Positions 21,848-62,902 of a stretch of 64,000 nt of DNA are shown in pieces. Source of the stretch: Streptomyces sp. V3I8 (lineage in GTDB: Bacteria > Actinomycetota > Actinomycetes > Streptomycetales > Streptomycetaceae). The position numbers and the translations under genes are program-made. The notes under the pieces were generated by a model, which searched no databases, had not been told where the DNA came from, and saw only the letters and a program-made list of their open reading frames with translations. Location: positions 194,683-258,682 of the forward strand of contig NZ_JAUSZL010000004.1 of assembly GCF_030817535.1 (NCBI RefSeq). The letters are read 5' to 3'. How positions within the stretch are numbered: the first letter of the stretch is position 1; each line of letters begins with the position of its first letter.

Positions 21848-22804
21848 TCAGGCGGCGACCGCGGTGCGGCGCGGGAGCATGGCCGTGCGGGGGCTGGCCT
21901 GCACGACGTCGAAGGCGCGGGTGGTCACGCCGACCCGCCCGAAGAGGCTGTCGGGGCCGCACACGTACATCCGGCCGATGTCGAGCCGGTCCTTGAGCGT
22001 GGCCACCACCTGCGGCCAGCGCACCGGCAGCACGTAGCCGTCCAGGAGCATGCGGCGCACCTGCTCACCGGTGCTCAGCACGGCGCCGTCCTGGTCGGCG
22101 ACGACGGGCAGGGTGGGGTCGGCGAAGGTCAGGCCGGCCAGCACCTCGGTGTCGATGCGCTCGCGCAGCGCGCCGAAGGCGCTGCAGTGCATGGGCGGGC
22201 GCATGGTGTAGAGCGGCATGCCGCCCAGCGAGCGCAGCTGCTTCTCCATCCACTCCACGCTGCCGGCGTCGAGGGAGACCATGTAGAAGTCGTCGTCGAT
22301 GTGGCAGGACAGGTCGTGCCACTCGCCGCGGTCGGTGAGTTCGGCGAGCACCTCGTCCAGGCGGGCGCGCGGGGTGCGGGTGAAGGAGAGGGTGACGGCG
22401 TTCTGGTACTCGCGGGAGAAGTAGTCGTTCTCGCAGCGGGCCATCTGCGCGGTCATCCGCACGGCGTCGCTGAAGCCGAGCACGCCGGAGAAGACGGCGG
22501 CCGCCTTGCTGCCGAAGCTGGGTCCGGCGACCGCGTCGGGGCGGATGCCGTACTCCTGCTCGGCCCAGTGCGCCAGCGCGAAGCAGTTGACGAAGAAGGC
22601 GACCTGGGCGTACTCGGTGTAGTCGCCGTCGGCCTCGCGGTAGCGGTCGAACAGGGAGTAGCCCAGCGCCTCGTCCGCGCTCTGCAGGAGGCGGCGGGCG
22701 TGCGGGTTGATCAGCATGAACTTCGCCACGTCCGCGAAGCGGACGGGCGCCATGCCGGGAAAGACGAGCGCGCTGCCAATGTCGGGTTCGGGCTGTGTGG
22801 TCAT
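21848..22804 (-). CDS. Stand-alone acyltransferase moving the starter between ACPs (VinK-like)
   Basis: A 318-residue protein of the malonyltransferase fold, recognised from LVFPGMAP near the N terminus and the nucleophile elbow AGPSFGS (Ser96), where usual PKS acyltransferases have GHSxG. The HAFH-type extender signature is missing, as expected for an enzyme that handles acyl-ACP and not malonyl-CoA. By family (VinK) it transfers the dipeptidyl starter from the free ACP to the loading ACP of the first PKS. The ATG at 22,804 has gaggag about twelve bases upstream. It lies 104 bases downstream of the decarboxylase gene, with three near-copies of ggctcagg in the gap, and is likely in the same operon as the aminomutase. 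Confidence 0.85.
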   Translation of the reverse strand: MTTQPEPDIGSALVFPGMAPVRFADVAKFMLINPHARRLLQSADEALGYSLFDRYREADGDYTEYAQVAFFVNCFALAHWAEQEYGIRPDAVAGPSFGSKAAAVFSGVLGFSDAVRMTAQMARCENDYFSREYQNAVTLSFTRTPRARLDEVLAELTDRGEWHDLSCHIDDDFYMVSLDAGSVEWMEKQLRSLGGMPLYTMRPPMHCSAFGALRERIDTEVLAGLTFADPTLPVVADQDGAVLSTGEQVRRMLLDGYVLPVRWPQVVATLKDRLDIGRMYVCGPDSLFGRVGVTTRAFDVVQASPRTAMLPRRTAVAA

Positions 22805-25827: not shown

Positions 25828-26739
25828 TCACGAACCCTGCTCCCCCAGCGCGTCCAGGTGGGCGCGCAGCACCTGCAGGAACCGCTCGGGCTCCTCCAGG
25901 TGGGGCATATGGCTGGACTCCTCAAGGACCTCCCAGCGCACGTCGGGGATCAGGTCCAGGAAGGGGCGCACCGTCGCCGGGGTGGCCTCGTCGTGCCCGC
26001 CGGTCAGCACCAGGGTGGGCACCGCCACGTCCGCGCAGTGCTCCACCACCGACCAGTCGCGCAGGGTGCCGATCACATGGAACTCGTTGGGGCCGTTCAT
26101 CGTGTAGTAGACGGTGGGGTCGTTGTAGACCTCCATGAACGAGGCCATGAAGTCCCGCGGCCACGGCGTGAGCCGGCACACGTGCCGCTCGTAGTAGGGC
26201 CGCATGGCATCGAAGTACTCCTGGCTGTCGGTGGTCCCGGCGGCCTCGTGGCGCAGCAGCGTGTCGTTGACGCCCGGCGGCAGCAGGTCGCGCAGCACCT
26301 TCGCCTCCTGCAGCCACAGCGGGTACGACGCCGGCGCGTTCGCCACCACCAGGCCGCGCAGCCCGGCGGGCCGGCGGGCGGCGTGCGCCACGCCGAGCAG
26401 ACCGCCCCAGGACTGGCCGAACAGGAGGTAGTCGTCGGCGATTCCCAGGTGCCGCAGCAGGTTGTCGAGCTCGTCCAGGAAGAGGTCCACGGTCCAGAAG
26501 TCGGCGCCGCGGTCGGGCAGATGGGTGGAACCGCCGTTGCCGATCTGGTCGTAGTGCACGACCGGCCGGCCGTCCTGGGCCAGTGCGGTGAGGTTGAGCA
26601 GGTAGTCGTGCGTGCTGCCCGGGCCGCCGTGCACCACCACCAGGGGGGTCCGGCCGCCGTGCAGGTCGCCGGTGACGCGGAACCAGGTCTGGTGCTCGCC
26701 GAACGGCGCCGTGCCCTTGGCGCTGGGTGCCACATGCAT
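25828..26739 (-). CDS. Proline iminopeptidase-like alpha/beta hydrolase (VinJ-like), removes the capping amino acid
   Basis: A 303-residue alpha/beta hydrolase of the prolyl aminopeptidase group: HGGPG oxyanion loop (37-41), nucleophile in GQSWGG (Ser110), and C-terminal HMPHLEEP with the catalytic His. In vicenistatin-type pathways this peptidase takes off the terminal amino acid from the PKS-bound chain, freeing the amine for macrolactam closure. The start was set at ATG 26,739, which has gggag eight bases upstream; the GTG at 26,748 overlaps that site. It lies 305 bases after the large PKS gene on the same strand, with a hairpin and purine-rich repeats in between, so it may have its own promoter. 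Confidence 0.85.
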   Translation of the reverse strand: MHVAPSAKGTAPFGEHQTWFRVTGDLHGGRTPLVVVHGGPGSTHDYLLNLTALAQDGRPVVHYDQIGNGGSTHLPDRGADFWTVDLFLDELDNLLRHLGIADDYLLFGQSWGGLLGVAHAARRPAGLRGLVVANAPASYPLWLQEAKVLRDLLPPGVNDTLLRHEAAGTTDSQEYFDAMRPYYERHVCRLTPWPRDFMASFMEVYNDPTVYYTMNGPNEFHVIGTLRDWSVVEHCADVAVPTLVLTGGHDEATPATVRPFLDLIPDVRWEVLEESSHMPHLEEPERFLQVLRAHLDALGEQGS

Positions 26740-26778
26740 GTCAGCCACTCCCGGTGGTCGCGGTGAAGATCGGACAAA

Positions 26779-27044: not shown

Positions 27045-43301
<16,257 letters not shown>

Positions 43302-43604: not shown

Positions 43605-46600
43605 TCAGGTGAGGCCGAGTTCCTTGTCGATGAAGTCGAAGACGTCGTCGGCCGATGCCGTCTGCAGTTTCTGGCCGACGCTGGAGGCCGCGTCGCTCTC
43701 GGTGTTCACGATGTCGGTCAGGCGTGCGGTCAGGCTCTGCAGCCGGGCGACGAGCCGGTCGGCCTCGATCTCCTGCGGGTCCAGGCCGGCGGCCGCCGCC
43801 TCCAGCCGTTCCAGCTGGGCCAGCAGCGGCAGGGGGCCGGGGGCGGTGTCCGGGGCCAGCTCCGTGAGCAGGAACTGTGCGAGCGCGGCCGGGCTGGCGT
43901 AGTCGAAGACCATGGTGCTGGGGAGTTTCCTGCCGGTGGCGGTGCTCAGGCGTCCCCGCAGGTCGACGGCCGACACGGAGTCGAAGCCGAGGTCGTCGAA
44001 GGCCCGTTTGAGGTCCAGGGCGGCGGGGTCGTCGTATCCGAGCAGGGCCGCGGTGTGGGAGCGCACGAGGTCCTGCACGGTGCGGCTCTGCTCGGCCTGG
44101 GGCAGGCCGGCCAGCTGTGCCGCGAGCTGGGGTGCGGTGGAGGCGTCCGGCTGCGGGCCGCTGTCTGCGGCCAGGGCCGCCCGGACGTCGGGGATGTCCG
44201 CGATCAGGGGGCGGGGCCGGGCCAGTGTGTAGGCGGGGACGAAGCGTGACCAGTCGAAGTCGGCCACCACGAGATGGCTCTGTCCCTGCTCAAGGGCCTG
44301 TTCCAGGGCGTTGACGGCGGTGGCGGGTGCCATCGCCGGTGCGCCCATGCGGCGCATGAGCGCGCTGAGTTCGGCATCGACCATGCCGCCCTCCCACGAT
44401 CCCCAGGCCACGCAGGTCGCGGTGCGCCCGCGGGCCTGGCGCCGGTGGGCGAGGCCGTCCAGGAAGGCGTTGGCGCTGCCGTAGGCGGCCTGGCCGCCGC
44501 TGCCCCAGACGGCGGAGCCGGAGGAGAACAGGACGAACGCGTCCAGTGGGCGGTCCGCCAGCAGGTCGTCCAGGTGCAGTGCGCCCAGGATCTTCGCCCG
44601 GCCGACCTCGGCGAACTCCTCCAGGTCCAGTTCGGGCAGGGAGGCGATGCGCTGCGGCAGGCCGGCCGCGTGGACGACCGCCCGCAGCGGCGGGTCCTTG
44701 GGCAGTGAGTCCAGCAGGGCGGCCAGCGCGTCCCGGTCGGCGACGTCGCAGGCGGCGACCGTGACCTGGACGCCCTGCCCTTCGAGTTCCTCCTTCAGCG
44801 CCGCGGCGCCCTGCGCGGCGGGGCCGCGGCGGCTGGTGAGGACCAGGTGCCGGGCGCCGTTGCGGGCGAACAGGCGGGCCACGTGGGCGCCGAGCCCGCC
44901 GGTGCCGCCGGTGATCAGGACCGTGCCGCCCGCCGCGACAGCCTGAGCCTGCCCCGCACCGGCGGCGGCCGGTACGGCGGGCCGCGTCACGGGCCCGGCG
45001 TCGGACACGGGGGCGGGGGCGGCGTCGGACGCGGGGGCGCGGTGGTGCGGCAGGCTGCCGGGGGCCGGGGCGGCGGTGAGCGGGGAGCGGACCATGCGGC
45101 GTGCGAACACGCCGTCGGGGCGGACGGCGAGCTGGTCCTCGTCCGCCTCGGCGCGCAGGACCGCGCCGAGGTGGCGTGCCGTCTGTGCGTCGGGGGCGGC
45201 GGGGATGTCGATCATGCCGCCGAAGCTCTGCGGCTGGTCCAGGGCCAGGCTCGCGCCCAGTCCCCACAGGGCCGCCTGGTGGGGGCTGAGGAGTTCCGCG
45301 GAGTCGTGCACCGCGACCGCGCCGCTGGTGACACACCACAGCGGTGCGGTGGCCTCGGCGTCCTGCAGTGCCTGGGCCAGGACCACGGTCGCGGCGCCTC
45401 CCCTGGTGAGCGCCGGGTACTGCGGGTGGGGGCGGTCGTCCAGGCCCAGCAGCGACAGGATCCGCACGGGAGCAGTATCGGCAAGGACGGTACGCAGGCT
45501 TGCGGCCAGCTCCGCACGGTCGGGGTCGGTGACCTCCAGCGACACGAGTTGCGCCTCGGTGGCCAGGGCGTCGCTCAGGCGCGCGAGCGTGTCGTTCGCC
45601 GCGGCCGGGGGCCGGACGAGGAGCCAGGTCGGCGCCGGGGCGCCGGCCGCGGCGGGAGTGGCCGGGGCGGGGGCCGGTGTCCAGGTCACCTGGTAGCGCC
45701 AGGAGTCGAGCAGGGCGTTCTCCTGGCGGCGGTGGCGCCAGGCGGCCAGCGCGGGCACGACGGCACCCAGGTGCGCTGTGGGCACGTCCAGTTCTTCGGC
45801 CAGCAGCAGGCTGTCGCCGCGCTCCACGGCGTTCCAGAAGTCGGCGTCCAGCGTGCTTGACGCTGCGGTGCCGTCGGCGGGACCGGCCGCGTGGGCGGAG
45901 GAATCACCCTGTGCGGCGGACATGCTGTCGGTCGACCAGTAGCGGCGGCGCTGGAAGGCGTACGTGGGCAGGTCCACGCGCTCAGCGCCGTGTCCGGCGT
46001 AGAAGGCGTCCCAGTCCACGGTGGCACCGGAGGCGAACAGCCCGCCCAGCGCGGTCAGTACGGTGACGTCCTCGGGCCGGTCCTTGCGCAGCACCGGGGC
46101 GTAGGTGATCTCGTCGACGCCGTCGAGAATCTGGCGGGCCAGGCCCGTCAGTACGGCGTCGGGGCCGCACTCGATGAAGCGGGTGACGCCCTGGCCTTGC
46201 AGGGTCTTGATCCCGTCGGCGAAGCGCACCGCCTCACGCACATGACTGACCCAGTACTCGGGGTCAGTCAGCTGCCCGGCCGTGGCCAGAGCACCCGTCA
46301 CGTTCGACACGACGGTCAGCTTCGGCTGCGCATACGTCAACGAGGCGGCCACTGTGCGGAACTCGTCGAGCATCGGCTCCATCAGCGGGGAGTGGAAGGC
46401 GTGCGAGACCCGCAGGCGGCTCACCCGGCGGCCCAGCGCACGGAAGTGCTCATCAACCGTCTTCACGTCGGCTTCGGCGCCGGAGACCACCACAGAAGTG
46501 GGACCGTTGACCGCGGCGATCCCCACCACACCGTTCAGCAGCGGCAGGACTTCGTCCTCGGTGGCCTCGACGGCGAGCATCGCTCCCCCGGAGGGCAGCG

Positions 46601-48665
46601 CGTCCATCAGCCGGCCCCGCGCCGCCACCAGCGTCGCCGCATCCTCCAGCGACAGGACGCCGGCGACGTGGGCGGCGGTGATCTCACCGATGGAATGCCC
46701 GGCCACGAAGTCCGGGCGCACACCCCACGACTCGAGCAGACGGAACAGGGCGGTTTCCACGGCGAACAGGGCGGCCTGAGCGAACACGGTGCGGTTGAGG
46801 GCATCGGCGTCGTCACCGAACACCGCCCCCCGCAACGGCCGCTCCAGCCGGCCCTGCAACGCTTCGCACACCGCGTCGAAGGCAGATGCGTACACCGGGA
46901 ACGCCTCATACAACTCCCCTCCCATGGACAGGCGCTGGCTGCCCTGGCCGGTGAACAGCACGGCGCTCAGGCCGTCGGAGGCCGGCGCCTGCTGCACGCT
47001 CGCGGCCGGCTCCCCCGCCGTCAGCGCGGACAGGCCCGCCAGCAGGTCTTCGCGGCTGCGGCCCACCACGACGGCCCGGTGTTCGAGGGCGGCGCGGGTG
47101 GTGGCCAGGGAGAAGCCGATGTCGGCCGGGGTGAGGTGAGGGCGCTTTTCCATCCAGCGGGCCAGCTGCTCGGCCTGGGCGGGCAGTGCGCCGGCGCCGC
47201 GCGCGGAGATCACCCACGGCACCGCCGGTGAGCCGGTCGCCGGGGTTTCGGCGTCGGCCGGGGCCGGGACGGTGGTCGCGGTGGTTTCGGTGGTCTCGGT
47301 GGGGGGTTGCGCCGGTGGCGGTTCCTCGATGATGACGTGGGCGTTGGTGCCGGAGAGGCCGAAGGAGGAGATGCCGGCGCGCTTGAGGTGGCCGGTGTCG
47401 GGCCAGGCGGTCTGTTCGGTGAGCAGGCGGATGTTGCCCGCGCTCCAGTCGACGTTGGAGCTGGGTGCGTCCACGTGCAGGGTCTGGGGCAGGACGTCGT
47501 GGCGCATGGCCATGACCATCTTGATGATGCCGCTGACGCCGGCGGCGGCCTGGGCGTGGCCGATGTTGGATTTGATGGAGCCCAGCCACAGGGGCCGGTC
47601 TTCGGGGCGGTCCTGGCCGTAGGTGGCCAGGAGTGCCTGGGCTTCGATGGGGTCGCCCAGGGTGGTGCCGGTGCCGTGGGCCTCGACGGCGTCGATCTGG
47701 TCGGCGGCGAGCTGGGCGGCGGCCAGGGCCTGGCGGATGACGCGTTGCTGGGAGGGGCCGTTAGGGGCGGTGAGGCCGTTGGAGGCGCCGTCGGAGTTGA
47801 CGGCGCTGCCGCGCACGACGGCCAGGACGGGGTGGTTGTTGCGGCGGGCGTCGGACAGGCGCTCCACCAGCAGCATGCCGATGCCCTCGCCCCAGCCGGT
47901 GCCGTCGGCGGCCTCGGCGAAGGCCTTGCAGCGGCCGTCGGGGGCCAGGCCGCGGTCCTGGCTGAAGCCGACGAAGGAGACGGGGGTGGACATGACGGTG
48001 ACGCCGCCGGCCAGGGCCAGGGAGCAGTCTCCGGCGCGCAGGGCCTGGATGGCCCAGTGCAGGGCGACCAGGGAGGAGGAGCAGGCGGTGTCGACGGTGA
48101 CGGCCGGGCCCTCCAGGCCCAGGGTGTAGGCGATGCGGCCGGAGGCGACGCTGGCCAGGGCGCCGGTGCCGCTGTCGGCGGAGTAGTCGTGGTAGACGAC
48201 GCCGGCGAAGACGCCGGTGCGGCTGCCCTTGAGGGACAGCGGGTCGATGCCGGCGCGTTCGAAGGCTTCCCAGGCCGTTTCCAGCAGCAGGCGCTGCTGG
48301 GGGTCGGTCTCGCGGGCCTCACGGGGGCTGATCTTGAAGAAGTCGGCGTCGAACTGTCCGGCGTCGTGCAGGAAGCCGCCTTCGCGGCAGTAGGTCTTGC
48401 CGGGGGTGGCGGGGGTGGGGTCGTAGAGGTCGGTGACGTCCCAGCCCCGGTCGGTGGGGAAGGGGGAGATGCCGTCGCCGCCCGAGGACACGAGGTCCCA
48501 CAGGTCTTCCGGTGAGGCGATGTTGCCGGGATAGCGGCAGCTCATGGCCACGATCGCGATCGGTTCGTGCTGCCTGGCCTCCGCGTCGCGCAGGCGCCGC
48601 TTGGTCTGCTGGAGGTCCGACGTGGCACGCCTGAGGTATTCGCGCAGCTTCTCGTCGTTGCCCAT
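43605..48665 (-). CDS. Single-module PKS, KS-AT-KR-ACP (no DH), hydroxyl-forming
   Basis: A 1,686-residue protein. N-terminal docking coil ([13 protein letters not shown]), KS (about 48,570-47,300; DTACSSS), malonyl-type AT (46,980-45,960; GHSIGE, HAFH), a post-AT linker with a [10 protein letters not shown] segment in the place of a DH (45,850-45,100), KR (about 44,940-44,340) and ACP (GFDSV, near 43,980), then a docking helix ([14 protein letters not shown]). The KR has GGTGGLG, catalytic Ser and Tyr (QAAYGSAN), lacks the LDD triad (AGLPQR) and has Trp in AVWGSGG: the A-type fingerprint, so an L-configured hydroxyl should remain in the chain. The KS elbow region differs from the neighbours ([13 protein letters not shown]), but the active site is intact. 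It follows the upstream PKS gene by 61 bases; the three are surely one operon. Confidence 0.92.
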
Positions 48666-48726: not shown

Positions 48727-51700
48727 CTATGCGATGCCCAGCTCGCTGTCGAGGACGTCGAAGAGTTCCTCGTCGGTGGCGGATGTGTAGCCGGCCCCGG
48801 ACTCGGGGGGTGCGGTGTCCTGGCGTGCGTCGTGCCAGGTGCGCAGGAGGGCTTCGAGGCGGCTGGTGATGCGTTCTTGGTCGCCGGGTGCGCTCTGGGC
48901 GCTCAGGGGGCCCAGCAGGGCTTCGATCCGGTCGATCTCGCCGAGTGCTTGCCGGGCCGCCGACTCGTCCTCCTCGGGCAGGACCAGGGCGTCGATGTGG
49001 TCGGCGGCGGCCCGGGAGTTGGGGTGGTCGAAGACCAGGGTGGCCGGCAGGGTCAGGCCGGTGGTGCGCTCCAGGCGCCGACGCAGTTCCACGGCGGCCA
49101 GCGAGTCGAAGCCCAGGTCCTTGAAGGCGCGGTCGGCTTCCACCGCGCCGGCCGAGGGGTGGCCCAGGACCGCGGCGACCTGTGCGCGGACCAGGTCCAG
49201 GAGCCGGCGGCCGCGTTCGGGGGCGGTAAGGGTGAGCAGGTGCCTGCGCAGCTGCCGGCCGGTGTCGGCGGTGGCGCGGGTGGCAGGGGTGGTGCGGGGG
49301 ATGCGTACGAGGGCGCGCAGCACGGCGGGCAGGTCGTCGCCGCGGGCGTACAGGGCGCCCCGGTCCAGGCGCAGCGGCACCACCACACCCTCACCGCTGC
49401 CACTGTCACTGCCACTCCCGGTGCCGGTTGTGGTGGCGGTGCCGGTTGTGGTCAGGGCGTGGTCGAACAGGGCGAGTCCTTCGCCGGTGTCCAGGTAGGG
49501 GGTGCCCAGTTCGGCGGCCCGCCGACGCTGGGCGGCGTCCGGGGCGTCCTCGTGCGTGGCCCAGGGTCCGTACGCCAGGGAGAGCGCCGGCAGGCCCTGG
49601 GCGCGGCGGTGGCGGGCGAGTGCGTCCAGGAAGGTGGCGGCGGCGGCCTGGTTGGCCTGGCCGGCGCCGTGCAGCAGGCCGGTGGAGGACGACAGCAGGA
49701 CGAACGCCGCCAGGTCCTGACCGGCGGTGAGTTCGTGCAGGTGCCAGGCGGCGCCGGCCCGGGGCAGCAGCGCGCTCTCCACGCGGTCGCGGGTCATCGC
49801 CTCCAGCAGGCCGTTGGCCGGGGTGAGGGCGGTGTGGACGACGGCGGTCAGCGGGTGCTCGTGCGCCACGGCGGCCAGTACGCCGGCCAGGGCCGCACGG
49901 CTGGTCAGGTCGCAGGTGTGCACGTCGATGTGGGCGCCGCTCTCGCGCAGGCCGCTCACGTCCGGGGCGGGGGCGGCCGGGTCGCAGGCCAGCAGCAGCC
50001 GGCGGACGCCGTGGTGGCCGATGAGGTGGCGGGCCAGCGGCAGGCCGTGGCCGTCCACGCCGACGGTCACCAGGACCGTCCCGTGCGCCGGCAGCGGCCC
50101 GGCCTCCCCCACCGCGCCGAAGCCGGTACCGGCGGCGGCCAGGCCGGAGGCGGTACTGAGGCCGGAGCCGGAGGCGGCGGGGGCGGGAGTGGCGGACGCG
50201 GGAGCAACGGGGGCGGCGGGTGCGGGGGTGGTGTCGGCGGGGGTGAGGCGGCAGACGAGCGGTCGTCCCTCGTGCAGGGCCACGTCGCTCTCCCCCTCGT
50301 CCAACAGCGCCAGCGCGGCGGGCAGGGCGGCGCGGGAGGCCGCCGAGCCGTCCAGGTCCACCAGGGCGAACCGGCCGGGGTTCTCCGCCTGTGCGGCGGT
50401 GACCAGGCCGCGCACCGCGGCCTGGGCCAGTCCCGTGGCGCTGTGGGCGGACACGGCGCCCTCGGTGACCACCACCAGGCGTGCGGTGGCAAGGCGCGGG
50501 TCGCCGGCCCAGGAGTGCAGTGCGGCGCGGACGTGCTCGAGGACCGTGCGGGCGGCGGCCAGGACGTCGCCGGGGGCGTCCTGGCCGGGCGCGGCGCCCA
50601 GCAGCAGCATCTGCCCGGGGGTGTCCTGGCCGGGGGTGTCCTGGCCGGTGAGGTGTTGGGCGAAGGAGTCGATGTCCGCGTGGAGGGGGGCGGGGCTGTC
50701 GCCCAGGGCGCGCAGGGGGTCCTGTCCCAGCACCGCCCAGCTCGGGTGCGCGGGGGCGCCGGCCGGTGCGGCCGCGTCCTGCCACTGCGGGTACAGCAGT
50801 ACGTCGGGGCGTACTCCGGTGGCCGCGGCGAGCGTGTCCGGTGTCAGGGGGGCGCAGGTGAGGGAGGCTACGGACAGCACCGGGGTGCCCGCGGTGTCGG
50901 CGAGGTCCAGACTGACGGCACTGGCGGCACTGGCGGCGCTGACGGCGCTGGGTTCGGTGCCGGTGTCCGTGCCGGTGGTGCGGGCCGCGCGTACGCGCAA
51001 GGTGGTGGCGCCGGGCGCGTGGCGCGACACCTGCCTCCAGTGCAGCGGCAGTGAGGGGCCTTCGCCGGCGCCGGGCAGCAGGTGGCGCAGCAGCGTAGCG
51101 GCCTCCCACAGCACCGGGTGCACGGTGAAGTCCTCGGTGCCGGTGTGCAGTTCGGGTGCCAGTGTCACCTCGGCGAACACCTCGTCGCCGCGGCGCCACA
51201 GGGCCGTCAGCGCGTCCGGGGCGGGCCCGGCGCCGTAGCCGTGCGCAAGGAGCGCCGCGCGGGCTTCGCCGGTGTCCAGTGCGCTCGCGCCGGGCGGCGG
51301 CCACTGGGTCAGGTCGGCCGGTGCCGGCGGGGGGCCGCCGGCCAGGGTCGCGGTGGCGTGCACGGTGGCGGGGATGTGCGGGTGCGGGGAGCGGGAGTGG
51401 ACACGCACCGTGCGGCTGCCGTCCTCGCCGGCCGGTGCCAGGGTCACCTGCAGGGCCGGCATCTGGTCCCCGGACAGGACGAGCGGCGCCGTGGTGTGCA
51501 GTTCACCTATGCTCTCGCAGCCCGCGTACGCCCCGGCGGCCAGGACGAGTTCGGCCAGTGCGGCCGGCGGGAACAGCGCGGTGCCCAGCACGTCGTGTCC
51601 GGTGGCCCAGGGGTGTTCGCGCGGGGAGAGCCGTCCGGTGAGGACCAGGCCGTCGCCGTCGGCGAGGGTGAGCGCGGCCTTGAGGAGCGGGTGGCGCGGG

Positions 51701-54552
51701 GCCTCGAGCCCGGCCGCGCTCAGGTCCGTGCCGCCGGCCAGCGCATCGAGCCAGTAGCGCTCGCGCTGGAAGGCGTACGTCGGCAGCTCCACGCGCTCGG
51801 CGCCGTGTCCGGCATAGAAGGCGTCCCAGTCCACTGCCGCACCGGAGGCGAACAGCCCGCCCAGCGCGGTCAGTACGGTGACGTCCTCGGGCCGGTCCTT
51901 GCGCAGCACCGGCAGGTAGGTCACCTCGTCGGCCGCAGTGGTGGTGCCGGCCGGGACGGCACTGGTGTCGGTAGCGGTGCCGGTGGTGTCGAGGATCTGG
52001 CGGGCCAAGCCCGTCAGGACGGCGTCGGGGCCGCACTCCACGAACCGGGTGACTCCCGCGCCGTGCAGGGCCTTCACCGCGTCGGCAAAGCGCACGGGCC
52101 GGCGGACGTGGCTGACCCAGTACTCGGGGTCGGTCAGCTCCTCGGCCGTCGCCAGGACGCCGCTCACGTTCGATACGACGGCCAGCTTCGGCTGCGTATA
52201 GATCAACGAGGCGGCCACCGTGCGGAACTCGTCGAGCATCGGCTCCATCAACGGCGAGTGGAAGGCGTGCGAGACCCGCAGGCGAGTGCTCTTGCGGCCC
52301 AGCGCACGGAAGTGCTCGTCAACCGTGTCGATGTCGGTCTCGGCGCCGGAGACCACCACGGAGGTGGGACCGTTGACCGCAGCAATCCCCACCACGCCGC
52401 TGAGCAGCGGCAGGACTTCGTCCTCGGTGGCTTCGACGGCGAGCATCGCTCCGCCGGAGGGCAGCGCGTCCATCAGCCGGCCCCGCGCCGCCACCAGCGC
52501 AGCCGCATCCTCCAGCGACAGGACGCCTGCGACGTGGGCGGCGGTGATCTCACCGATGGAATGCCCGGCCACGAAGTCCGGCCGCACCCCCCACGACTCC
52601 AGAAGCCGGAACAGCGCCGTCTCCACGGCGAACAGGGCGGCCTGGGCGAAGAGGGTGCGGTTGAGCAGGTCGGCGTCGTCACCGAACACCACCTCCCGCA
52701 GCGGGCGTTCCAGCCGGCCCTGCAGCGCTTCGCAGACGGCGTCGAAAGCGGCCGCGTACACCGGGAACGCCTCGTACAGCTCCCGGCCCATGGACAGGCG
52801 CTGGCTGCCCTGGCCGGTGAAGAGGACGGCGGTGCGGCCCGAGGGGCGCGACCGGGTCACCGCGTCGTCGCCGAGCCCGGTGAGCGCGGCCAGGAGGTCC
52901 TCGCGGGTGCGGCCCACCACGACCGCCCGGTGTTCGAGGGCGGCGCGGGAGGAGAGCAGGGAGAAGCCGATGTCGGCCGGGGCGAGGTGGGGGCGTTCCT
53001 CCACCCAGCGGGCCAGTTGCTCGGCCTGGGCGGGCAGTGCGCCGGCGCCGCGCGCGGAGATCACCCACGGCACCGCCGGTGAGCCGGTTTTCGGGGCGGT
53101 GGCCGCTGCGGGGGCGGTGGGCAGGGCGGCGGGGGGTGCGGGGTGTTCGCCGTCCTGGGGGGCCTGCGGCGTCGGGTCGGGGTCGTGCGGGGGTGGTTCT
53201 TCGACGATGACGTGGGCGTTGGTGCCGGAGAGGCCGAAGGAGGAGATGCCGGCGCGGCGCGGGCGGCCGTCGTCGTTGACGGGCCAGGGGCGGGGCTCGG
53301 CAAGGAGCTGGACGGCTCCGGTGTTCCAGTCGACCTTGGTGGAGGGCTGGTCGGCGTACAGGGATTTGGGCAGGACGTCGTGGCGCATGGCCATGACCAT
53401 CTTGATGATGCCGGCGACGCCGGCGGCGGCCTGGGTGTGGCCGATGTTGGATTTGATGGAGCCCAGCCACAGCGGGCGGTCTTCGGGGCGGTCCTGGCCG
53501 TAGGTGTCCAGCAGGGCCTGGGCCTCGATGGGGTCGCCCAGGGTGGTGCCGGTGCCGTGGCCCTCGATGACGTCGATGTCGGCGGGGGTCAGGCGGGAGC
53601 CGGAGAGGGCCTGTTTGATGACGCGCTGCTGGGAGGGGCCGTTGGGAGCGGTGAAGCCGCTGGAGGCGCCGTCCTGGTTGGTGGCGCTGGCGCGGATGAC
53701 CGCGAGGACGGGGTGGTTGTTGCGGCGGGCGTCGGAGAGGCGTTCGAGCAGCAGGACGCCGGCGCCTTCGGAGCAGCCCATGCCGTCGGCGGATTCGGAG
53801 AAGGACTTGCAGCGGCCGTCGGCCGCCAGGCCGCGCTGGGTGCTGAAGTAGACGAACATCTCGGGGTTGGACATGACGGTGACGCCGCCGGCCAGGGCCA
53901 GGGTGCAGTCGCCGCGGCGCAGGGCCTGGGCGGCCAGGTGCAGGGCGACCAGGGAGGAGGAGCAGGCGGTGTCGACGGAGACGGCCGGTCCCTCCAGGCC
54001 CAGGGTGTAGGAGATGCGGCCCGTCACCAGGCTGCCGGCGCTGGAGCTGCCGGCTTCCTTGCCCTGGGCGTAGTCGTGGTACATGACGCCGGCGAAGACG
54101 CCGGTGCGGCTGCCCTTGAGGGTGAGGGGGTCGATGCCGGCGCGTTCGACGGCCTCCCAGGCGGTTTCCAGCAGCAGGCGCTGCTGGGGGTCCATCACCA
54201 GGGCCTCGTTGGGGCTGATGTTGAAGAACGCGGCGTCGAAGTCGGCGGCGTCGTGCAGGAAGCCGCCCTCGTTGGCGTAGGTCTTGCCGGCGTGGCCGGG
54301 CTGGGGGTCGTAGACGCCCGCGTCCCAGCCGCGGTCGGCGGGGAAGGCGGAGACGGCGTCGCGGCCGTCGGCGACCAGCTGCCACAGGTCTTCGGGGGAG
54401 GTGACGCCGCCCGGGTAGCGGCACGCCATGCCGACGATGGCGACGGATTCGTCGTCGGGTTTGCGTGCCGCCTCGTCGAGGCATCTGCGAGCGTCGCGCA
54501 GCTCCGCGAGAGTGCGCTTGAGGTATTGAAGGAGCCGTTCCTCGTTGCTCAC
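48727..54552 (-). CDS. Single-module PKS, KS-AT-(inactive DH)-(inactive KR)-ACP, beta-keto-forming
   Basis: A 1,941-residue protein from GTG 54,552 (gaggag ten bases upstream). Docking coil, KS (54,440-53,200; DTACSSS), malonyl-type AT (52,840-51,780; GHSIGE, HAFH), a DH remnant (51,700-50,880), a KR remnant (50,090-49,540), ACP (GFDSL, near 49,110) and docking helix ([15 protein letters not shown]). The DH keeps HDVLG but has lost the catalytic Asp (LWEAATL for LLDAALH, Glu codon at 51,103-51,105) and the YGPxF motif. The KR nucleotide loop GGTGGLG has become VGVDGHG, the catalytic Tyr is Gln (codon 49,648-49,650) and the following Asn is Ala. KS, AT and ACP look intact, so the module should extend the chain and leave a ketone. 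It is the first PKS gene of the operon; the epoxidase gene lies upstream across a 254-base gap. Confidence 0.92.
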
Positions 54553-54806: not shown

Positions 54807-56219
54807 TTAGCGGGGGGTGTCGTGCAGGTCGGGCCGGGTGTGCTGGGCGAGGAGTTCGCCGATCTGCGGGAACTGGGCGCGGGCCTGCTGCGCGGTGAGG
54901 GCGGGCTTGTCGGGGCCGCGCAGCACGGACAGCAGCAGCGGCAGCGACATCATCCTGCTCTGCGGGCTGCGCAGGGTGCTGACCTCGTAGACGGCGCGCA
55001 GCACGTTCTCGTTGGCGGCGGCGGTGCGGGCGTAGCGGGCGCCGATGCTCTGCTGCATGGCCGCGCCGCGGACGGTGATGTTGGTCTTGACGCCGGGGAA
55101 GAACAGGTCGGTGGTGCTGGCCATGGTCCAGGGGCCCGCGCCGGCGGCGGCGATGTCGTTCTGCACGGCGCGCGCCAGGCCCGGCTCGAGTCCGTGGGTC
55201 TTGAGGCGGGTGCGCAGGGCAAGAGCGCCGAAGGCGGCCATCGACATGCCGGTGGCGTAGTTGGGGCTCAGCACCATCACGGCGTCACCGATGGCCAAGA
55301 ACCCGTCGGGCAGGGGCAGTTTGTGCCACAGGCGGCGGCGGTTGGCCAGTCCGCGGGAGCCGCGGACCTCGGTGAGGGGGCGGGCGGTGGCGATGAGTTC
55401 GGCGACGACGGGGTCGCGCATGTCGCGGGCGAAGTCCGTGAAGCCCTCGTCCTGGGTGGGCGGCTGGCCGCCCTGGGTGCCGATGAGGGAGACGATCCAG
55501 CGGCCGTCCTCCTGGGGCATGAACGCGGCGCCCTTGCCGGGCTGTCCGGTGCCGGGGACGGTCTGGATGAGGACGCCGGGAAAGTTCTTGGCGGCCTGCG
55601 GGGGCGCTTCGTACTCGCGGCCGGCGTAGGTGAGGCCGGCGTCGACGAACTCCTCGGCGACGGCGGGCAGGCCCAGGCCGGCGAGCCAGGTGGGGGACTT
55701 GGAGCGGCTGCCGCAGGCGTCGACGACCAGGTCGGCGCCGATGACGGCTTCGGAGCCGTCGGCGCGTTCGACGGCCACCCCGGTGACGGCGGTGGCGTCG
55801 CCTCTCAGGGCGACCGCCCTGGTGGCCTGCAGCACGGTGACGGCCGGGTCGTCGAGGACCTGGCTGCGCACGACGTGGTCGATCAGGGGGCGGCTGCAGG
55901 CGATCGTGTAGGAGTCGTCGTCGAAGGTGCGGAACCAGCCCTCGGAGGAGAGGGTGAGCATGTCGCTGCCCATGGCCAGGGTGTGGGCGCCGGCCGCGGT
56001 CAGCTGGGCCAGGGTGCCGGGCAGCAGCTGCTCGAGGGCTTCGGCGCCGCCGGCCATGAGCATGTGGTTCTGCCGGCCCTGGGGCAGGCCCTTGCGCTGG
56101 GCGGGCCCCTGGGGGTAGGTGTCGCCCTCGATGACGGTGACCTTGTCGGCGTGCCGGGCCAGGACGCGGGCGGCCAGCAGGCCTGCCAGTCCGCCGCCTA
56201 TCACCACTGCCTGTGTCAT
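54807..56219 (-). CDS. FAD-dependent epoxidase/monooxygenase, Lsd18/MonCI-like
   Basis: A 470-residue flavoprotein: N-terminal FAD site GGGLAG (residues 8-13), [13 protein letters not shown] (about 42-54), DACGSRS in the middle and [16 protein letters not shown] as the second FAD motif. The order and wording of these blocks, including [13 protein letters not shown], closely follow the polyether epoxidases (Lsd18, MonCI), relatives of squalene epoxidase that act on polyene polyketides. No transmembrane or signal segment is seen. Its ATG overlaps the stop of the preceding SRPBCC gene (ATGA at 56,216-56,219), so the two are translationally coupled. It probably epoxidises an alkene of the polyene chain or ring; hydroxylation is the main alternative. 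The assignment to this family is from recalled sequence pattern, not a search. Confidence 0.8.
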
Positions 56220-56665
56220 CGGATGCTGCCCCTCTGTGCGGTGCGGCGCTGTGCCTCGCGCTCCAGCGCCTTGAAGGTGGCGCGGGTGTCACCGCGGAAG
56301 GCCTTGGCCCACACGAGGCGGAACAGCGGGACGAAGGGGCCGTGGACCTCGACGCGGCGGTGCAGCGCGACCTTGCCCGGGCCCTGGGCGCGGTAGGTGT
56401 TGATGATCAGCATCTTGCCGCCGGGCATCGGGGACTGGGTGGTGTAGGAGGTGCCGGGTTCGGTTTCGACGAGGGTGAAGTAGCCGCGCCGGCCCGAGAC
56501 GATGCGGGAGATGGTCCAGCCGCCGCTGCCCGGCTCGAAGGGCCCCTCGAAGCCGCTCTGCAGGACGTGCGGGTCCCAGGTCGCCCAGGCGGGCACGTCG
56601 GAGACCGTCTGCCAGACGGCGTCCGGTTCGGCGTCGATGATGTCCGACTCTTCGAACGCGTACAT
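56216..56665 (-). CDS. SRPBCC-family (polyketide cyclase/dehydrase-like) small protein
   Basis: A 149-residue protein with the START/SRPBCC pattern: an N-terminal strand with DIIDAEPDAVWQTVSDVPAWATWDPHV, then alternating strands (YFTLVETEPGTSYTTQ, GKVALHRRVEVHG) and a long C-terminal helix. The fold forms a deep hydrophobic pocket; members act as aromatase/cyclases, dehydratases or lipid carriers. No catalytic residues can be assigned. ATG 56,665 has gagagg nine bases upstream. It overlaps the epoxidase start by four bases, so the pair is probably made in equal amounts and may work on the same substrate, for example opening or rearranging the epoxide. Confidence 0.75.
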   Translation of the reverse strand: MYAFEESDIIDAEPDAVWQTVSDVPAWATWDPHVLQSGFEGPFEPGSGGWTISRIVSGRRGYFTLVETEPGTSYTTQSPMPGGKMLIINTYRAQGPGKVALHRRVEVHGPFVPLFRLVWAKAFRGDTRATFKALEREAQRRTAQRGSIR

Positions 56666-57123
56666 GACCAAGTACCTCTCATTTGCGTGACACGACGGAG
56701 GGGGAGGAAGCGGGCGCGGGCCCTGCCGGGGCCCGCCGGAGTCCCGGCGGGGCCCGCCCGGCGAAAGCGCCCCGGCCGGATCCCCCTGGCAGGGGCGCCC
56801 CTGGTGGGGGTCCGCCCCAGGCGGGGGGTACGCCCCGGCCGGATGCGCCCGTTTGTCCGGGAGGTACATCCGCCCGGAAAGTGCGCCCATCCGGAGCGGG
56901 TGCGCCCGCCCGGGGGGTGCGCCCGCCCTGGGGGGTGCGTCCCGGACCGGGTGCGCCTGTGCGGAGGTGCGTCCGCCGAAGGCGGTGCGCCTGTGCGGGG
57001 GTGCGCCCTGCGGCAGACGCCGACGCCCGGGACACGGCGTCCGGGACACGGTGTCCCGGGGGGGGCGCCGGGGGGTGCCTGCCGGGCATCTCGTCCGGGG
57101 CGCCGGACGGGGCGCCGGACGGG
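56666..57123 (-). other. Repeat-rich intergenic gap, no gene seen
   Basis: Between the flavin oxidoreductase stop and the SRPBCC start. It contains many variants of ggtgcgcccg (56,890-57,010) and an inverted repeat ccgggacac-g-gtgtcccgg at 57,041-57,059. The latter could end the upstream transcript; a promoter for the SRPBCC-epoxidase pair would have to lie here too, but none is obvious. Confidence 0.5.
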
Positions 57124-57139
57124 GCGCCCCGCGGGGCGC
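57124..57139 (-). terminator. Palindrome just after the flavin oxidoreductase gene
   Basis: gcgccccgcggggcgc is a perfect 16-base palindrome eight bases past the stop codon of the luciferase-like gene. It is short and has no loop, so terminator strength is uncertain. Confidence 0.45.
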
Positions 57140-57146
57140 GGCGGGG

Positions 57147-58382
57147 TCAGTTCCCGGGCGTGGGACGCGGGTTCTGGAACTCCTCCATGTCGGTACGGAT
57201 CACGTAGTCGGACACGTCCACCGCCGGGGCCTCGATCCGCTCCAGGGCGTTCTTCAGCGGCACGGCGAGCCGGTCCTGCTTGGCCAGTTCGGCCGCCTCG
57301 CGGCGCCCGGCGAACTCCGGCATGACCTCGCGGGCGAACAGTTCCAGGGACTCGCAGATGTGCTCGTGGCTGTTGGAACCGAGCTGCACCTGGAAAATGA
57401 TCTCGTCGACGCCCGCGGCCTCCTGCACCCGGATCATCTCGGCGAGCTTGTCCGGGGTGCCGATCCCGCGGCGCACCACCTTGTCCATGCGCTCCGCGTT
57501 CTCCGGCGGCACCGGCGGCTGCTTGGCGAACTCTTCCGACAGCACCGTGGTGCCGGGACGGTGGCCGCCCTGCACGTAGAAGTGCATGAAGGAGTTGACG
57601 TAGAAGTCGACGCCGCCCATGGCCCGCTCGTAGGCAATCTCCTCGTCGCGGTGGCACAAGAAAGGCAGCGCGACCGCGAAGTTGGCGTTGACGGCCTTGC
57701 CGACCGGGACGCAGTCCTCGGACTCGATGGTGCGGTAGTAGGCGCCGACGCGCTCGGTGGCCTCCTCCGGGGTCATGAACGCGAACGACAGGGCACCCAC
57801 CCCGTTACGGGCGGCCGTCTCGACGGTCTCGGGGGAACTGCAGGCCACCCACAGCGGGGGGTGCGGCTTCTGCTTGGGCTTGGGCAGCACGTTGCGCGGC
57901 GGCATGTCGATCCACTGGCCCTGGTGGCCGGTGAAGGGCACCTCGGTGAGCATCCGGGTGATCACGCCGATCGCCTCGCGCCACTGCTCGCGCTTGGTGG
58001 CCCGGTCCACACCGAACGCGCCGAGCTCGTGCTGGGTGCTGCCCTGCCCGGAGCCGAACTCCACCCGCCCCCCGGACACCAGGTCCAGCATCGCGATGCG
58101 CTCGGCGATACGGGCGGGATGGTTCACCGCCGGCGGCAGCGTCACGATGCCGTGCGCCAGCCGGATGTTCGTGGTCCGGGCGGCCGCCGCCGCCAGGAAC
58201 ACCTCGGGCGCCGAGGAGTGCGAGTACTCGTCCAGGAAATGATGCTCGGAGGCCCAGACCGTGTCGAATCCCAGCCGGTCGGCGAGTTCTATCTGCTCCA
58301 GGGCCTCATTGAGTGTTTTCTCCTCCCCGTCCTCGGTCCACGGACGGGGATTCTGCAGGAGATAGATCAGACCGAAGCGCAT
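57147..58382 (-). CDS. Luciferase-like (LLM class) flavin-dependent oxidoreductase
   Basis: A 411-residue TIM-barrel protein of the bacterial luciferase-like monooxygenase group: MRFGLIYLLQ start, ADRLGFDTVWASEHHF, the family block with SGGRVEFGSGQG, and PPLWVACSSPETVETAARNG. These enzymes use reduced FMN (or F420) and oxygen for Baeyer-Villiger, hydroxylation or dehydrogenation steps and need a separate flavin reductase, which is not in the window. The ATG at 58,382 follows gaggagcg, giving a usual ribosome site. It lies upstream of the SRPBCC-epoxidase pair on the same strand but with a 481-base gap and hairpins between, so it may be a separate unit. Likely a tailoring oxidase of the macrolactam; the substrate is unknown. 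Confidence 0.85.
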   Translation of the reverse strand: MRFGLIYLLQNPRPWTEDGEEKTLNEALEQIELADRLGFDTVWASEHHFLDEYSHSSAPEVFLAAAAARTTNIRLAHGIVTLPPAVNHPARIAERIAMLDLVSGGRVEFGSGQGSTQHELGAFGVDRATKREQWREAIGVITRMLTEVPFTGHQGQWIDMPPRNVLPKPKQKPHPPLWVACSSPETVETAARNGVGALSFAFMTPEEATERVGAYYRTIESEDCVPVGKAVNANFAVALPFLCHRDEEIAYERAMGGVDFYVNSFMHFYVQGGHRPGTTVLSEEFAKQPPVPPENAERMDKVVRRGIGTPDKLAEMIRVQEAAGVDEIIFQVQLGSNSHEHICESLELFAREVMPEFAGRREAAELAKQDRLAVPLKNALERIEAPAVDVSDYVIRTDMEEFQNPRPTPGN

Positions 58383-60161: not shown

Positions 60162-61433
60162 TCAGGAGGGGTTGATCTGGGGAGCCAGCTGCTCGCAGGG
60201 CAGTTCGATGGTGGCGGTGGTGGGACCGCCCGGCGGACTGTGCAGGGCCAGGATCCCGTCGAACGCGCCGAGCCTGCGCTCGATGCCCGCCAGCCCGCTG
60301 CCGCCGGCCGGGTCCGCGCCGCCCCTGCCGTCATCGGTCACCGTGATCCGCAGCATGCCCTCCTCGCAGCGCATGTCGATCCAGATCCGCTCCGCCCGGG
60401 CGTGCTTGGCGACATTGGTCAGCATCTCCGACACGGAGAAGTACGCGGCCGCCTCGACCGGCGCGGCCAGCCGCCCGATCACCTCGTCACCGACCTCGGT
60501 CCTGACCGGACTGCGCAGCGCCAGCGCCCGCACCGCATCGCCCAGACCCCGCTCGGCAAGGACGGGAGGATGAATGCCCCGCACCAGCTGGCGCAGTTCG
60601 TCCAGGGCCTCCGCGGAGGACTTGCGGGTCTGCGCCAGCAGCACGGCCGCCTGGTCGGGATCACTGCGCAGCAGGTGCTCGATGGTGCCCAGACTCATCC
60701 CCATCGCCACCAGCCTCGCCTGCGCCCCGTCGTGCAGATCACGCTCGATACGCCGCAGCTCGGCCGCCGAGACGTCCACCGCGTCCGCACGGGACTCCTT
60801 CAGATGCTCGATACGCATCTGCAGCGCCCGCCCCCGTCCGGGCGCCAAGAACGCCCTCGTCAGCAAGCCGTGCACATGCAGGATCAGCGGATCGTAGCGC
60901 AGCCCCGCCGCGATGAACCCCGCCCCCAGCACGGCCGCCGCCAGCGCGGTCAGCTGCCCGCCCACCGGAACGAACGCATACCAGTACCCGACCTCACGCA
61001 TCGGCCGCCACACACCGGCCGCCAGCACGAACCCCCACACCCCGTACAGCAGCAGAGCCGCCGCGAACATCCCCAGCACGAACCCCGCCACCGGATCGAC
61101 GATCATCCACAGCAGATCACGCCAGGTCGCAGGATCCTTCAACAGCCACCGCCAGCGCTGGACCTGACCCACCACACCGCCCGCATCCGCCGGCAGCGGC
61201 CGGTAGGGCACCGCGATGTCCACCGCGCACCAGCGCCCCGCCAGCCGGCGGCGCGCGGTGGCATTGGCCCGGGCCGCACCGATCACCCACGGCGTGGTGA
61301 ACACCCCGATCCCCACCACACTCAGCGCGATCGACACCACCGAGAGACAAAACAGCACCAGCGAGACCACCATCGACAGCAATGCCAGGCACGCCCCCCG
61401 GGCCGCAGCCGCCACACCGGCCCGAACATCCAT
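60162..61433 (-). CDS. Two-component sensor histidine kinase (HisKA_3 type) with membrane sensor domain
   Basis: A 423-residue membrane kinase. Hydrophobic segments at about 13-45, 108-140 and 155-180 form the sensor part. The dimerisation box RIERDLHDGAQARLVAMGMSLG puts the phospho-accepting His at 234, as in NarL-type (HisKA_3) kinases, and the ATPase part has SEMLTNVAKHARA (N box) and TDDGRGGADPAGGSGLAGIERR (G boxes). The start at 61,433 was chosen because it has ggag five bases upstream and the longer frame to 61,814 adds only Gly-rich low-complexity sequence. No NarL-type response regulator lies beside it, and the LuxR-type protein at 62,903 lacks a visible receiver domain. Membership of the cluster is uncertain. 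Confidence 0.88.
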   Translation of the reverse strand: MDVRAGVAAAARGACLALLSMVVSLVLFCLSVVSIALSVVGIGVFTTPWVIGAARANATARRRLAGRWCAVDIAVPYRPLPADAGGVVGQVQRWRWLLKDPATWRDLLWMIVDPVAGFVLGMFAAALLLYGVWGFVLAAGVWRPMREVGYWYAFVPVGGQLTALAAAVLGAGFIAAGLRYDPLILHVHGLLTRAFLAPGRGRALQMRIEHLKESRADAVDVSAAELRRIERDLHDGAQARLVAMGMSLGTIEHLLRSDPDQAAVLLAQTRKSSAEALDELRQLVRGIHPPVLAERGLGDAVRALALRSPVRTEVGDEVIGRLAAPVEAAAYFSVSEMLTNVAKHARAERIWIDMRCEEGMLRITVTDDGRGGADPAGGSGLAGIERRLGAFDGILALHSPPGGPTTATIELPCEQLAPQINPS

Positions 61434-62902
61434 CTCGTCTCCCGTGATCGAAACGCGCCGGCCCCGACGCGAAACCCCTTCACCACACCCGGACCCCGCC
61501 GCGCGACGCCCCGGCCGTACAAGACCCCTACTGTGCCGCCCGCCGGCCGCCAGCGGCACCGCCCCAGCACCCCGAAACCAGGGTGTACCTGCCACCACCG
61601 TGACCCATCCGGCACACCCACCACCACTATCCAGCCACCCCCACACCCCCCAACCAACCAACCGGCCGGCGGAGCAGCCCACCGGCCCACCGGCCCGCCA
61701 GCCAGCCCACCGACCTGCCGGCGCGCCCACCGGCCCACCGGCTGCTCCGCCGGCAGACCCACACCCCCGCAACTCCCCCGCCCACCCGCACCCCCGCCCC
61801 GGCCCCGAACTCAACCCTCACCCTCACCCTCACCCTCAGCCTCAGCCTCAGCACCGGCACCGGCACCGGCACCGGCACCGGCACCGGCACCGGCACCATC
61901 CCGCCGAACGGCCCGCCCGTATCCCGTACCCCGCGCCCCGCCCCGCCCCGCCCCGCCCACGCACCACCACACCGCCGGCGGCGGGCCCGGCATCGCCGCC
62001 CCCACCGGCACACCACCCGGACCGCCCCACGACCCGCACATCGGGGCAGGTTCCCCGGCCCGACGACACGGCCACCGTGCCCCCCCCTGGCAGGCCGGAA
62101 ACAGCCCCGGCCACCTACCGGCGCCTGCCCACCGGACCCGGGCCAAGGACAACCACCGCCCGGCCACCCTCCTGGGACAGGACACCACCCACACCACAGC
62201 CCACCCGCACCCCGCCCACGATCCGCCCCGCCCACACCCCCATCCACATCCACATCCGCCCGCACCCGGCACCCGGCACCCGGCACCCGGCACCCGGCAC
62301 CCGGCACCCGGCCACGCACTACCCCACCCGCGTCCCGCCCACACACCACACCCCGCCCCGCCCGCGCTGCCCCCGGCCCGGCCGCACACCACCCGCCCAC
62401 AGCCCTCACAGCCCCCTCCCCCGACACCGGCCCCCGACAGGCCCGCAGCCGGCTCCCACCGACAGCCCACCACCCCGCAGGCCCGCCCCCACCGCTCGCC
62501 ACCGGCGCCCCACCGGCCCGCGACGGGTCCCGACAGGCCCGCGGCCGGTCCCCACCGACAGCCCACCACCCCGCAGGCCCGCCCCACACCGGCCCACCGG
62601 CCCGCAACGGATCCCGGCAGGCCCGCAGCCGGCTCCCACCGGCCCGCCACCACCCCCACCGGCAGCCCACCGGCCCGCAGGCCGGCTCCCACCGCCCGCC
62701 ACCGGCGCCCCCCTGGCCCGCGACGGGCCGGTGGCGGGCCCGCGTCCGGACGGCGGCAGGCCACCGCCGGCCCGCATCCGGCCACCGCCGCCCACCGCAC
62801 GGCCGAAAACCACAGGCCCCTCCAACGCCTCCTGCCACGAACGCCGTTCATGGCTTAAAGTTGCGCTGCCGCGACCAGCATGACGAAGGGGGCACCCCGA
62901 AG
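61434..62902. repeat. 1.5 kb C-rich repetitive spacer
   Basis: No gene is seen; long frames here are low-complexity artefacts. Repeats: ccctca-type hexamers (61,814-61,850), caccgg seven times (61,852-61,893), cacccgg seven times (62,263-62,311), and about 95-base imperfect repeats with the word aggcccgc(a/g)gccgg at 62,439, 62,536 and 62,618. The plus strand is extremely C-rich, the minus strand G-rich. A TAAAGT patch near 62,856 may belong to the LuxR-type gene's promoter. Confidence 0.7.

Follow-up and report, generated by a model that had tools for sequence, protein, structure and literature searches.

Lsd18 (LasC) of lasalocid and MonCI of monensin are class A flavin monooxygenases that share one fold and occur in a polyketide polyene setting. 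In the accessible parts of the literature, the residues of Lsd18 that contact substrate or flavin include A70, H71, I72, W74, Y218, H239, V252 and V342, of which Y218, V252 and V342 form a stereocontrol subpocket (PMC12144862), and two motifs, RKGX1PQX2RHX3HX4LWSX5GA and AFNPX1X2GHGMSX3X4A, are described as confined to polyether epoxidases (PMC10560226). For the beta-amino-acid macrolactams hitachimycin and cremimycin, the available sections of PMC11284099 list two nicotinamide adenine dinucleotide (NAD) oxidoreductases, a cytochrome P450 and two sugar-isomerase-type proteins as tailoring enzymes. Here we analysed a 64,000-nucleotide stretch of Streptomyces sp. V3I8 (the window, C4:194683-258682; the 9.3-Mb genome, G000, comprises 4 contigs, and the right edge of the window is the end of contig C4). 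In it, a flavin adenine dinucleotide (FAD)-dependent monooxygenase of the Lsd18/MonCI type lies with an SRPBCC protein and a luciferase-like monooxygenase (LLM)-class flavin oxidoreductase beside a macrolactam polyketide synthase (PKS). We propose, at a probability of about 0.4, that this trio lies at the heart of an oxidative tailoring cassette that recurs in clusters for beta-amino-acid polyene macrolactams and closes a C8-C12 carbocycle. The genes are on the minus strand, in the transcription order LLM, SRPBCC, FAD, PKS3, PKS2, PKS1:

57147..58382, minus strand, LLM-class flavin oxidoreductase (PF00296, E 5e-55)
56666..57146, no strand, GC-rich, repeat-laden spacer of 481 nt between the LLM and SRPBCC genes
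56216..56665, minus strand, SRPBCC (PF10604) protein of 149 aa, candidate ring-closing partner
56216..56219, minus strand, ATGA stop/start overlap of the SRPBCC and FAD genes
54807..56219, minus strand, FAD-dependent monooxygenase of 470 aa, placed in a macrolactam clade of the Lsd18/MonCI family
48727..54552, minus strand, PKS3, single module KS-AT-DH-KR-ACP with degenerate KR; ketone predicted
43605..48665, minus strand, PKS2, single module KS-AT-KR-ACP; hydroxyl predicted
27045..43301, minus strand, PKS1, three modules KS-AT-DH-KR-ACP with malonyl-type AT

A phmmer search of the PDB matched the FAD protein to Lsd18/LasC (E 4e-109, residues 3-447) and MonCI (E 4e-88, residues 3-444); in the aligned stretches, identity is 45% and 39%. 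Its AlphaFold2 model (predicted local distance difference test, pLDDT, 92) was closest to Lsd18 (template modelling (TM) score 0.91-0.93, root-mean-square deviation 1.7-2.0 to the Lsd18 chains); MonCI scored 0.91, and the value dropped clearly to 0.67 for squalene epoxidase. It retains the GGGLAG and GD motifs of the FAD protein family as well as the His that stacks on the flavin. Full-length homology and a shared fold place the enzyme in the Lsd18/MonCI superfamily, and the Lsd18/MonCI pattern that an earlier note on this DNA had read at 54807-56219 was borne out. Its label 'polyether-type' was not. In the alignment, the eight Lsd18 contact residues correspond to N51, H52, M53, M55, Y198, Q219, A232 and N320, so that only two of the eight compared positions are unchanged, with N51/M53/M55/Q219/A232/N320 standing for A70/I72/W74/H239/V252/V342; in the stereocontrol subpocket Y198 is kept and A232 and N320 differ. 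The exact eight-residue signature of the window occurred in 25 of 129 aligned sequences. The enzyme lacks both motifs of PMC10560226 as given in the accessible part of that source; the first was also present in 18 database homologues of the 129-sequence set and the second in 1, counted irrespective of pathway. Membership of the polyether epoxidases was rejected on these motif and pocket tests.

In a tree of 68 rows (arbitrary root, several long branches, 51 rows unlabelled), Lsd18 and MonCI grouped in a clade of 21 rows (100/99), and the FAD enzyme fell in a different one of 44 rows (99/97). One side of a branch (99/94) consisted of the 11 rows labelled as SRPBCC-linked, with five of these labels (P0006, P0007, P0008, P0015, P0018) resting on indirect record matching only. 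This position in the tree assigns the FAD enzyme to a distinct macrolactam clade within the Lsd18/MonCI family. Broad Lsd18-family relatives were found in 332 of 392 Streptomyces genomes (E 1e-60); at E 1e-165 the macrolactam type was found in 3 of 392 Streptomyces genomes (G000, G382, G117), 5 of 249 family genomes and 3 of 394 class genomes, each count including G000 itself and the samples overlapping. The chromosome of V3I8 carries a second Lsd18-family gene (G000:C2:668541-669869, 41-42%), which belongs to the widespread type clustering with Lsd18/MonCI.

The long open reading frame (ORF) 56216-57049 is over-extended: the PF10604 stretch starts at its residue 129, and the ATG at 56665 gives an SRPBCC protein of 149 aa, compared with 149-150 aa in 13 database records. 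PF10604 was matched at 59.1 bits (gathering threshold 27.4), and the AlphaFold2 model (pLDDT 93) has the helix-grip fold. Identity to the SRPBCC aromatase/cyclases TcmN, ZhuI and WhiE-ORFVI was 10-16%, and unlike these proteins of type II PKS systems, the window's SRPBCC partners a flavoenzyme of a modular PKS cluster; the sole match in a PDB sequence search was 3ijt (E 0.0044). The ATGA overlap (56219-56216), pointed out in the earlier note, recurs in 3 other genomes. It also sets the locus apart from Lsd18 and MonCI, as does the absence of a SnoaL_2-type gene from the contig: no SnoaL_2 (PF12680) match, the sole epoxide-hydrolase family searched, was found on C4, and all 19 matches of the genome were on C2. 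The 13 SRPBCC records of the protein search include the window's own; 5 are apparently co-located with FAD matches, 2 of these also with LLM. Among the 392 Streptomyces genomes the SRPBCC profile matched one, the window's own, when 10 candidates were scored in each genome. The same cluster encodes, outside the window and near an MFS gene (L006:12226-12660), a further SRPBCC protein that is more distant, at 29% to the first, and has a relative in G490 (L059:7488-7973, 35%).

The LLM gene does lie upstream, as the earlier note had it. Between it and the SRPBCC gene are 481 nt of GC-rich sequence with imperfect repeats of 11-17 bp, 24 bp and 50 bp, so the overlap is limited to the SRPBCC and FAD genes; the corresponding gap is about 110-135 nt in Streptomyces sp. 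AC512_CC834 (AC512) and Kitasatospora sp. Root107. The LLM is probably a two-component enzyme dependent on reduced flavin mononucleotide (FMNH2), as suggested by PF00296 together with a flavin reductase gene in the cluster (L006:14492-15022), which is far from the LLM gene and beside a gene for a short-chain dehydrogenase/reductase (SDR). The reductase gene adjoins LLM in G382, G582 and G490 and was not detected in the sequence examined of G492, G117, Root107 and AC512.

Ten FAD loci were compared: the window, AC512 (L010), Root107 (L011, counted with G428 as one genome), G492, G748, G614, G382, G582, G490 and G117. LLM, SRPBCC and FAD genes were contiguous, with PKS next in line, in four of them (window, AC512, Root107, G492), and SRPBCC and FAD genes were adjacent in two more, namely G748 (short gap, no overlap; LLM about 77 kb off at the far end of the cluster) and G614 (a 9-kb contig). 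At G382, G582 and G490 a DUF993 gene overlaps the FAD start (GTGA); the G382 copy was identified as PF06187 and the G582 and G490 copies by tblastn (93% and 62%). No SRPBCC of the window's family was found at these three loci, where a P450 gene lies 1.5-6 kb and LLM and flavin reductase genes 7-14 kb from FAD. In G117 some 12 kb separate the DUF993 gene from FAD, and a search of 100 kb showed no LLM. Overall, LLM was present at 8 of 9 loci and SRPBCC at 6 of 10, and the frequent companions of the cassette were LLM, flavin reductase, a mycofactocin-family SDR and P450. G382 and G582 resemble beta-Phe-type clusters, since both have an aromatic lyase/aminomutase gene (PF00221) no more than 41 kb away and a TylF methyltransferase, whose family was tested for G382; in G117 a glutamate-mutase-like gene was identified by eye only. 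An in-frame stop suspected in the G117 FAD gene was the natural stop just beyond the conserved part. In G490 (L067/L059) and G582 (L064/L058) a PKS module is seemingly split, KS ending one protein and AT beginning another, and the LLM, P450, DUF993 and FAD genes lie between the halves.

These results indicate that the trio is rare but recurrent, and that two unrelated proteins, SRPBCC and DUF993, share one overlapping slot before FAD. The idea that the trio is unique to the window's strain was rejected. The earlier note had called the combination unfamiliar for macrolactam clusters and proposed a search for it in other actinomycetes: no paper describing the trio was found in the open-licence literature, and the search returned the three further contiguous loci and two SRPBCC-FAD pairs, so the combination is not peculiar to this strain. 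What we regard as new is the separate Lsd18-like clade, the macrolactam setting and the unusual overlapping partner; the kinds of component were already known.

The PKS of contig C4 comprises 10 modules, and all 10 AT domains carry HAFH, which we take to denote malonyl-CoA; malonyl-CoA extension in every module would leave the alkenes disubstituted. In PKS3, the KR has lost its NADPH motif (TGGTGGLG to TVGVDGHG) and carries Arg for Lys, Gln for Tyr and Ala for Asn; in the DH, Glu replaces Asp. Its counterpart in AC512 has the identical KR Tyr to Gln change, and that in Root107 and G492 is a 1075-aa KS-AT-ACP protein. The catalytic residues of the PKS2 KR are in place. A KR-less module followed by a KR-only module also occurs in G492, G748, G582 and G117; in G490 the module can be called keto only tentatively, and the G382 contig does not reach far enough for this reading. 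Gene order in G490 and G748 suggests reading the window's assembly line as M1-M4, PKS3, PKS2, PKS1 and a terminal module, which would put a ketone at C13 and a hydroxyl at C11. Aminomutase loci of at least 69% identity outside the own genome numbered 18 (1 partial), of which 9 were examined as controls; 8 (G054b, G259, G100, G066, G273, G012, G062, G106) had no such PKS modules, leaving one cluster, G054a, as a usable cassette-less macrolactam control. G054a has the keto/hydroxyl doublet, and the doublet was rejected as a marker of the cassette. The reading frame is broken in PKS-A (window 7613-7776) and in the next PKS gene (L004:5112-5443), perhaps through assembly errors; the broken pieces were read separately.

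The contig also carries genes for mycofactocin, a redox cofactor, outside the window:

C4:153172-165211 (L008:9172-9477, L006:507-1211), mycofactocin biosynthesis operon

The sole MftC above cut-off in the genome is at C4 153524-154537, and the PKS gene closest to it lies about 26 kb to its right; MftB adjoins MftC and MftE is about 10 kb further. MftC exceeded the cut-off in 6 of 8 FAD genomes searched (G000, G490, G117, G748, G492, G428), each with a copy on the FAD contig within about 111 kb of FAD, and not in the G582 and G382 genomes. The mft genes are inside the macrolactam cluster in G117 and abut SDR and aminomutase genes in G490. In the family sample, 15 of 249 genomes have MftC, as do 4 of the 5 FAD genomes (hypergeometric 4e-5, provided both 249-genome samples are identical, with kinship uncorrected and G428 and G492 in one genus). 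No VinK, KamA-type aminomutase, FAD or SRPBCC homologues were found within about 20 kb on each side of 10 of the 11 other MftC loci, some of which gave weak LLM, KS, AMP-ligase or lyase matches (24-39%). The SDR of the window's cluster is TIGR03971, and so is that of G582, where MftC was not found; use of mycofactocin by the cluster SDRs is accordingly putative. The titles listed from the open-licence literature for mycofactocin with macrolactams concern ribosomally synthesised and post-translationally modified peptides (RiPPs).

We propose the following sequence of events. It builds on observed genes, synteny, overlap, clade, pocket residues and KR defects; the skeleton of the product, the carbons attacked, the sequence of steps and catalysis by SRPBCC are inferred. 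The PKS would yield an all-malonate polyene with the unreduced PKS3 ketone beside the PKS2 hydroxyl, that is, on a colinear reading of the 10 modules, C13=O, C11-OH and an alkene at C8=C9. The mycofactocin-family SDR, encoded elsewhere on the contig, would oxidise the C11 alcohol and thereby acidify C12, and the FAD enzyme would epoxidise a nearby disubstituted alkene, C8=C9 being the best candidate. The SRPBCC protein, with its polyketide-cyclase fold, may bind the product and direct the C12 enolate to it, so that a carbocycle spanning C8-C12 forms, like that of the hitachimycin/cremimycin skeleton. The remaining oxygen could be added by LLM with flavin reductase and P450. An oxidative ring-forming step, as the earlier note had suggested, is likely; the note's observation of the genes was confirmed and its interpretation upheld in part. 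Its thought that SRPBCC replaces the usual epoxide opener gains weight because DUF993 fills that slot in 3 related clusters. The full version, in which SRPBCC itself catalyses epoxide-opening carbocyclisation by a 1,3-diketone enolate on the FAD-made epoxide, DUF993 is its equivalent and the SDR uses the co-travelling mycofactocin, is decidedly speculative.

Several points weigh against the carbocycle. The colinear order is carried over from G490 and G748, and the hydroxyl module is 5 (G582) and 6 (G748) modules from the end, not 4. The 120 kb searched at the control cluster G054a contain the doublet but no match to FAD, LLM, SRPBCC or SDR. Cyclases match the SRPBCC model no better than SMU.440, plant PYL receptors and PR-10 proteins do. 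The hitachimycin/cremimycin enzymes listed in the available sections of PMC11284099, compared by description only, include no LLM or SRPBCC, and another review, in its accessible part, has that ring closed by a Michael or Nazarov reaction. A doubtful though not far-fetched alternative is that SRPBCC is a non-catalytic carrier that passes the hydrophobic macrolactam on to the FAD enzyme, or shields the product, any ring closure being spontaneous. SRPBCC is a general ligand-binding fold, and hormone receptors and proteins without a known function are among the top structural matches of our model; loss of the piericidin SRPBCC protein PieC did no more than cut the titre to about 35-50% (PMC4979870, accessible part), and spontaneous cyclisations are known in macrolactams (PMC11236979, accessible part). 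The overlap with the FAD gene and the presence of DUF993 in its place speak against a mere carrier, as do the polar residues D23, D31, H33, N89, R103 and E106, which are invariant across the 13 SRPBCC sequences.

If SRPBCC instead served as an epoxide hydrolase/cyclase in place of MonB/Lsd19, the PKS2 hydroxyl or the lactam nitrogen could open the FAD-made epoxide to an oxa- or aza-cycle. The Lsd18/MonCI kinship, the free hydroxyl expected from PKS2 and the lack of a SnoaL_2 match on C4 agree with such a polyether-like ring, and epoxide-derived C-O or C-N rings are proposed, in the sections available, for mirilactams, dracolactams and ciromicins (PMC9230918, PMC10662134). It is nevertheless unlikely, given an FAD enzyme that lacks both polyether-epoxidase motifs and most of the pocket residues, and a recurrent SDR which suggests that the hydroxyl is oxidised and not kept as a nucleophile; a hitachimycin/cremimycin-type carbocycle is more likely. 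Least probable is that the FAD enzyme is no epoxidase, and hydroxylates or guides a cycloaddition as PyrE3 does while LLM performs the key oxygenation. Its pocket is more polar (N51, Q219, N320) with Met at the position of Lsd18 W74, LLM is at least as constant at these loci as SRPBCC, and FAD-dependent PyrE3-type cyclases are mentioned in the accessible part of PMC11236979; the whole-length match to Lsd18, the TM score of 0.93 and the conserved flavin-binding features argue for an epoxidase.

The remaining features of the window include the starter-unit genes:

60162..61814, minus strand, sensor histidine kinase ahead of LLM
25828..26748, minus strand, alpha/beta hydrolase, VinJ-like by cluster context
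24196..25524, minus strand, KamA-family radical SAM aminomutase; IdnL4-like glutamate 2,3-aminomutase candidate
22909..24165, minus strand, pyridoxal phosphate (PLP) enzyme, aminotransferase class I/II; IdnL3-like decarboxylase candidate
21848..22804, minus strand, VinK-like acyltransferase (VinK_C)
19853..21772, minus strand, AMP-binding ligase; ORF start probably over-extended
18104..18718, plus strand, TetR regulator
16315..17904, plus strand, second AMP-binding ligase
7613..15985, minus strand, first part of PKS-A: ACP before the first KS (loading type), modules 1 and 2
1..7776, minus strand, second part of PKS-A, continuing left beyond the window

Together, the aminomutase, PLP enzyme, VinK_C acyltransferase, two AMP ligases, alpha/beta hydrolase and type I PKS corroborate the beta-amino-acid macrolactam context stated in the earlier note, and by gene families (aminomutase, PLP enzyme, AMP ligases, VinK, PKS) the cluster is of the 3-aminobutyrate type, the starter genes pointing to that unit with predicted substrates. 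The aminomutase, PLP enzyme, AMP ligases and VinK plus VinJ-like set is common to the incednine type. Left of the window, C4 carries more PKS genes, a plus-strand terminal PKS with thioesterase, P450, flavin reductase and the TIGR03971 SDR. A histidine kinase is at the matching place in AC512 (74%). ORF 62861-64000, with a weak HTH match, runs off the end of C4, a contig of 258,682 bases that could be a linear plasmid.

With hitachimycin and cremimycin the cluster shares a beta-amino-acid macrolactam PKS and SDR and P450 tailoring, and G382 and G582 join a beta-Phe-type starter gene (PF00221) to the window's FAD, LLM and flavin reductase families; the window differs in its 3-aminobutyrate-type starter genes. 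CmiM1-4 and M7 and HitM1-5 were compared by their described roles. No sugar-isomerase-type gene was recognised by eye in G382 or G582, and G582 has 11 modules. Hitachimycin is a possible identity of these two clusters, and viridenomycin an alternative. Sceliphrolactam has ten PKS modules, as does the window's cluster. In the accessible descriptions, post-PKS oxidation of sceliphrolactam and verticilactam is by a P450 with ferredoxin and no LLM/FAD/SRPBCC set is described; both were rejected as a match because their tailoring set differs.

For macrolactams of the hitachimycin/cremimycin type, functional analysis of the enzymes behind the extra ring is said to be still awaited (PMC11284099, section 7, as far as available). 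The cassette names a minimal candidate pair for ring closure, FAD with SRPBCC or FAD with DUF993. With it, a clade of their own would take Lsd18-type flavoenzymes outside the polyethers, and mycofactocin is connected with one class of polyketide clusters. The FAD/SRPBCC pair is a candidate, open to testing, for a novel mode of ring closure.

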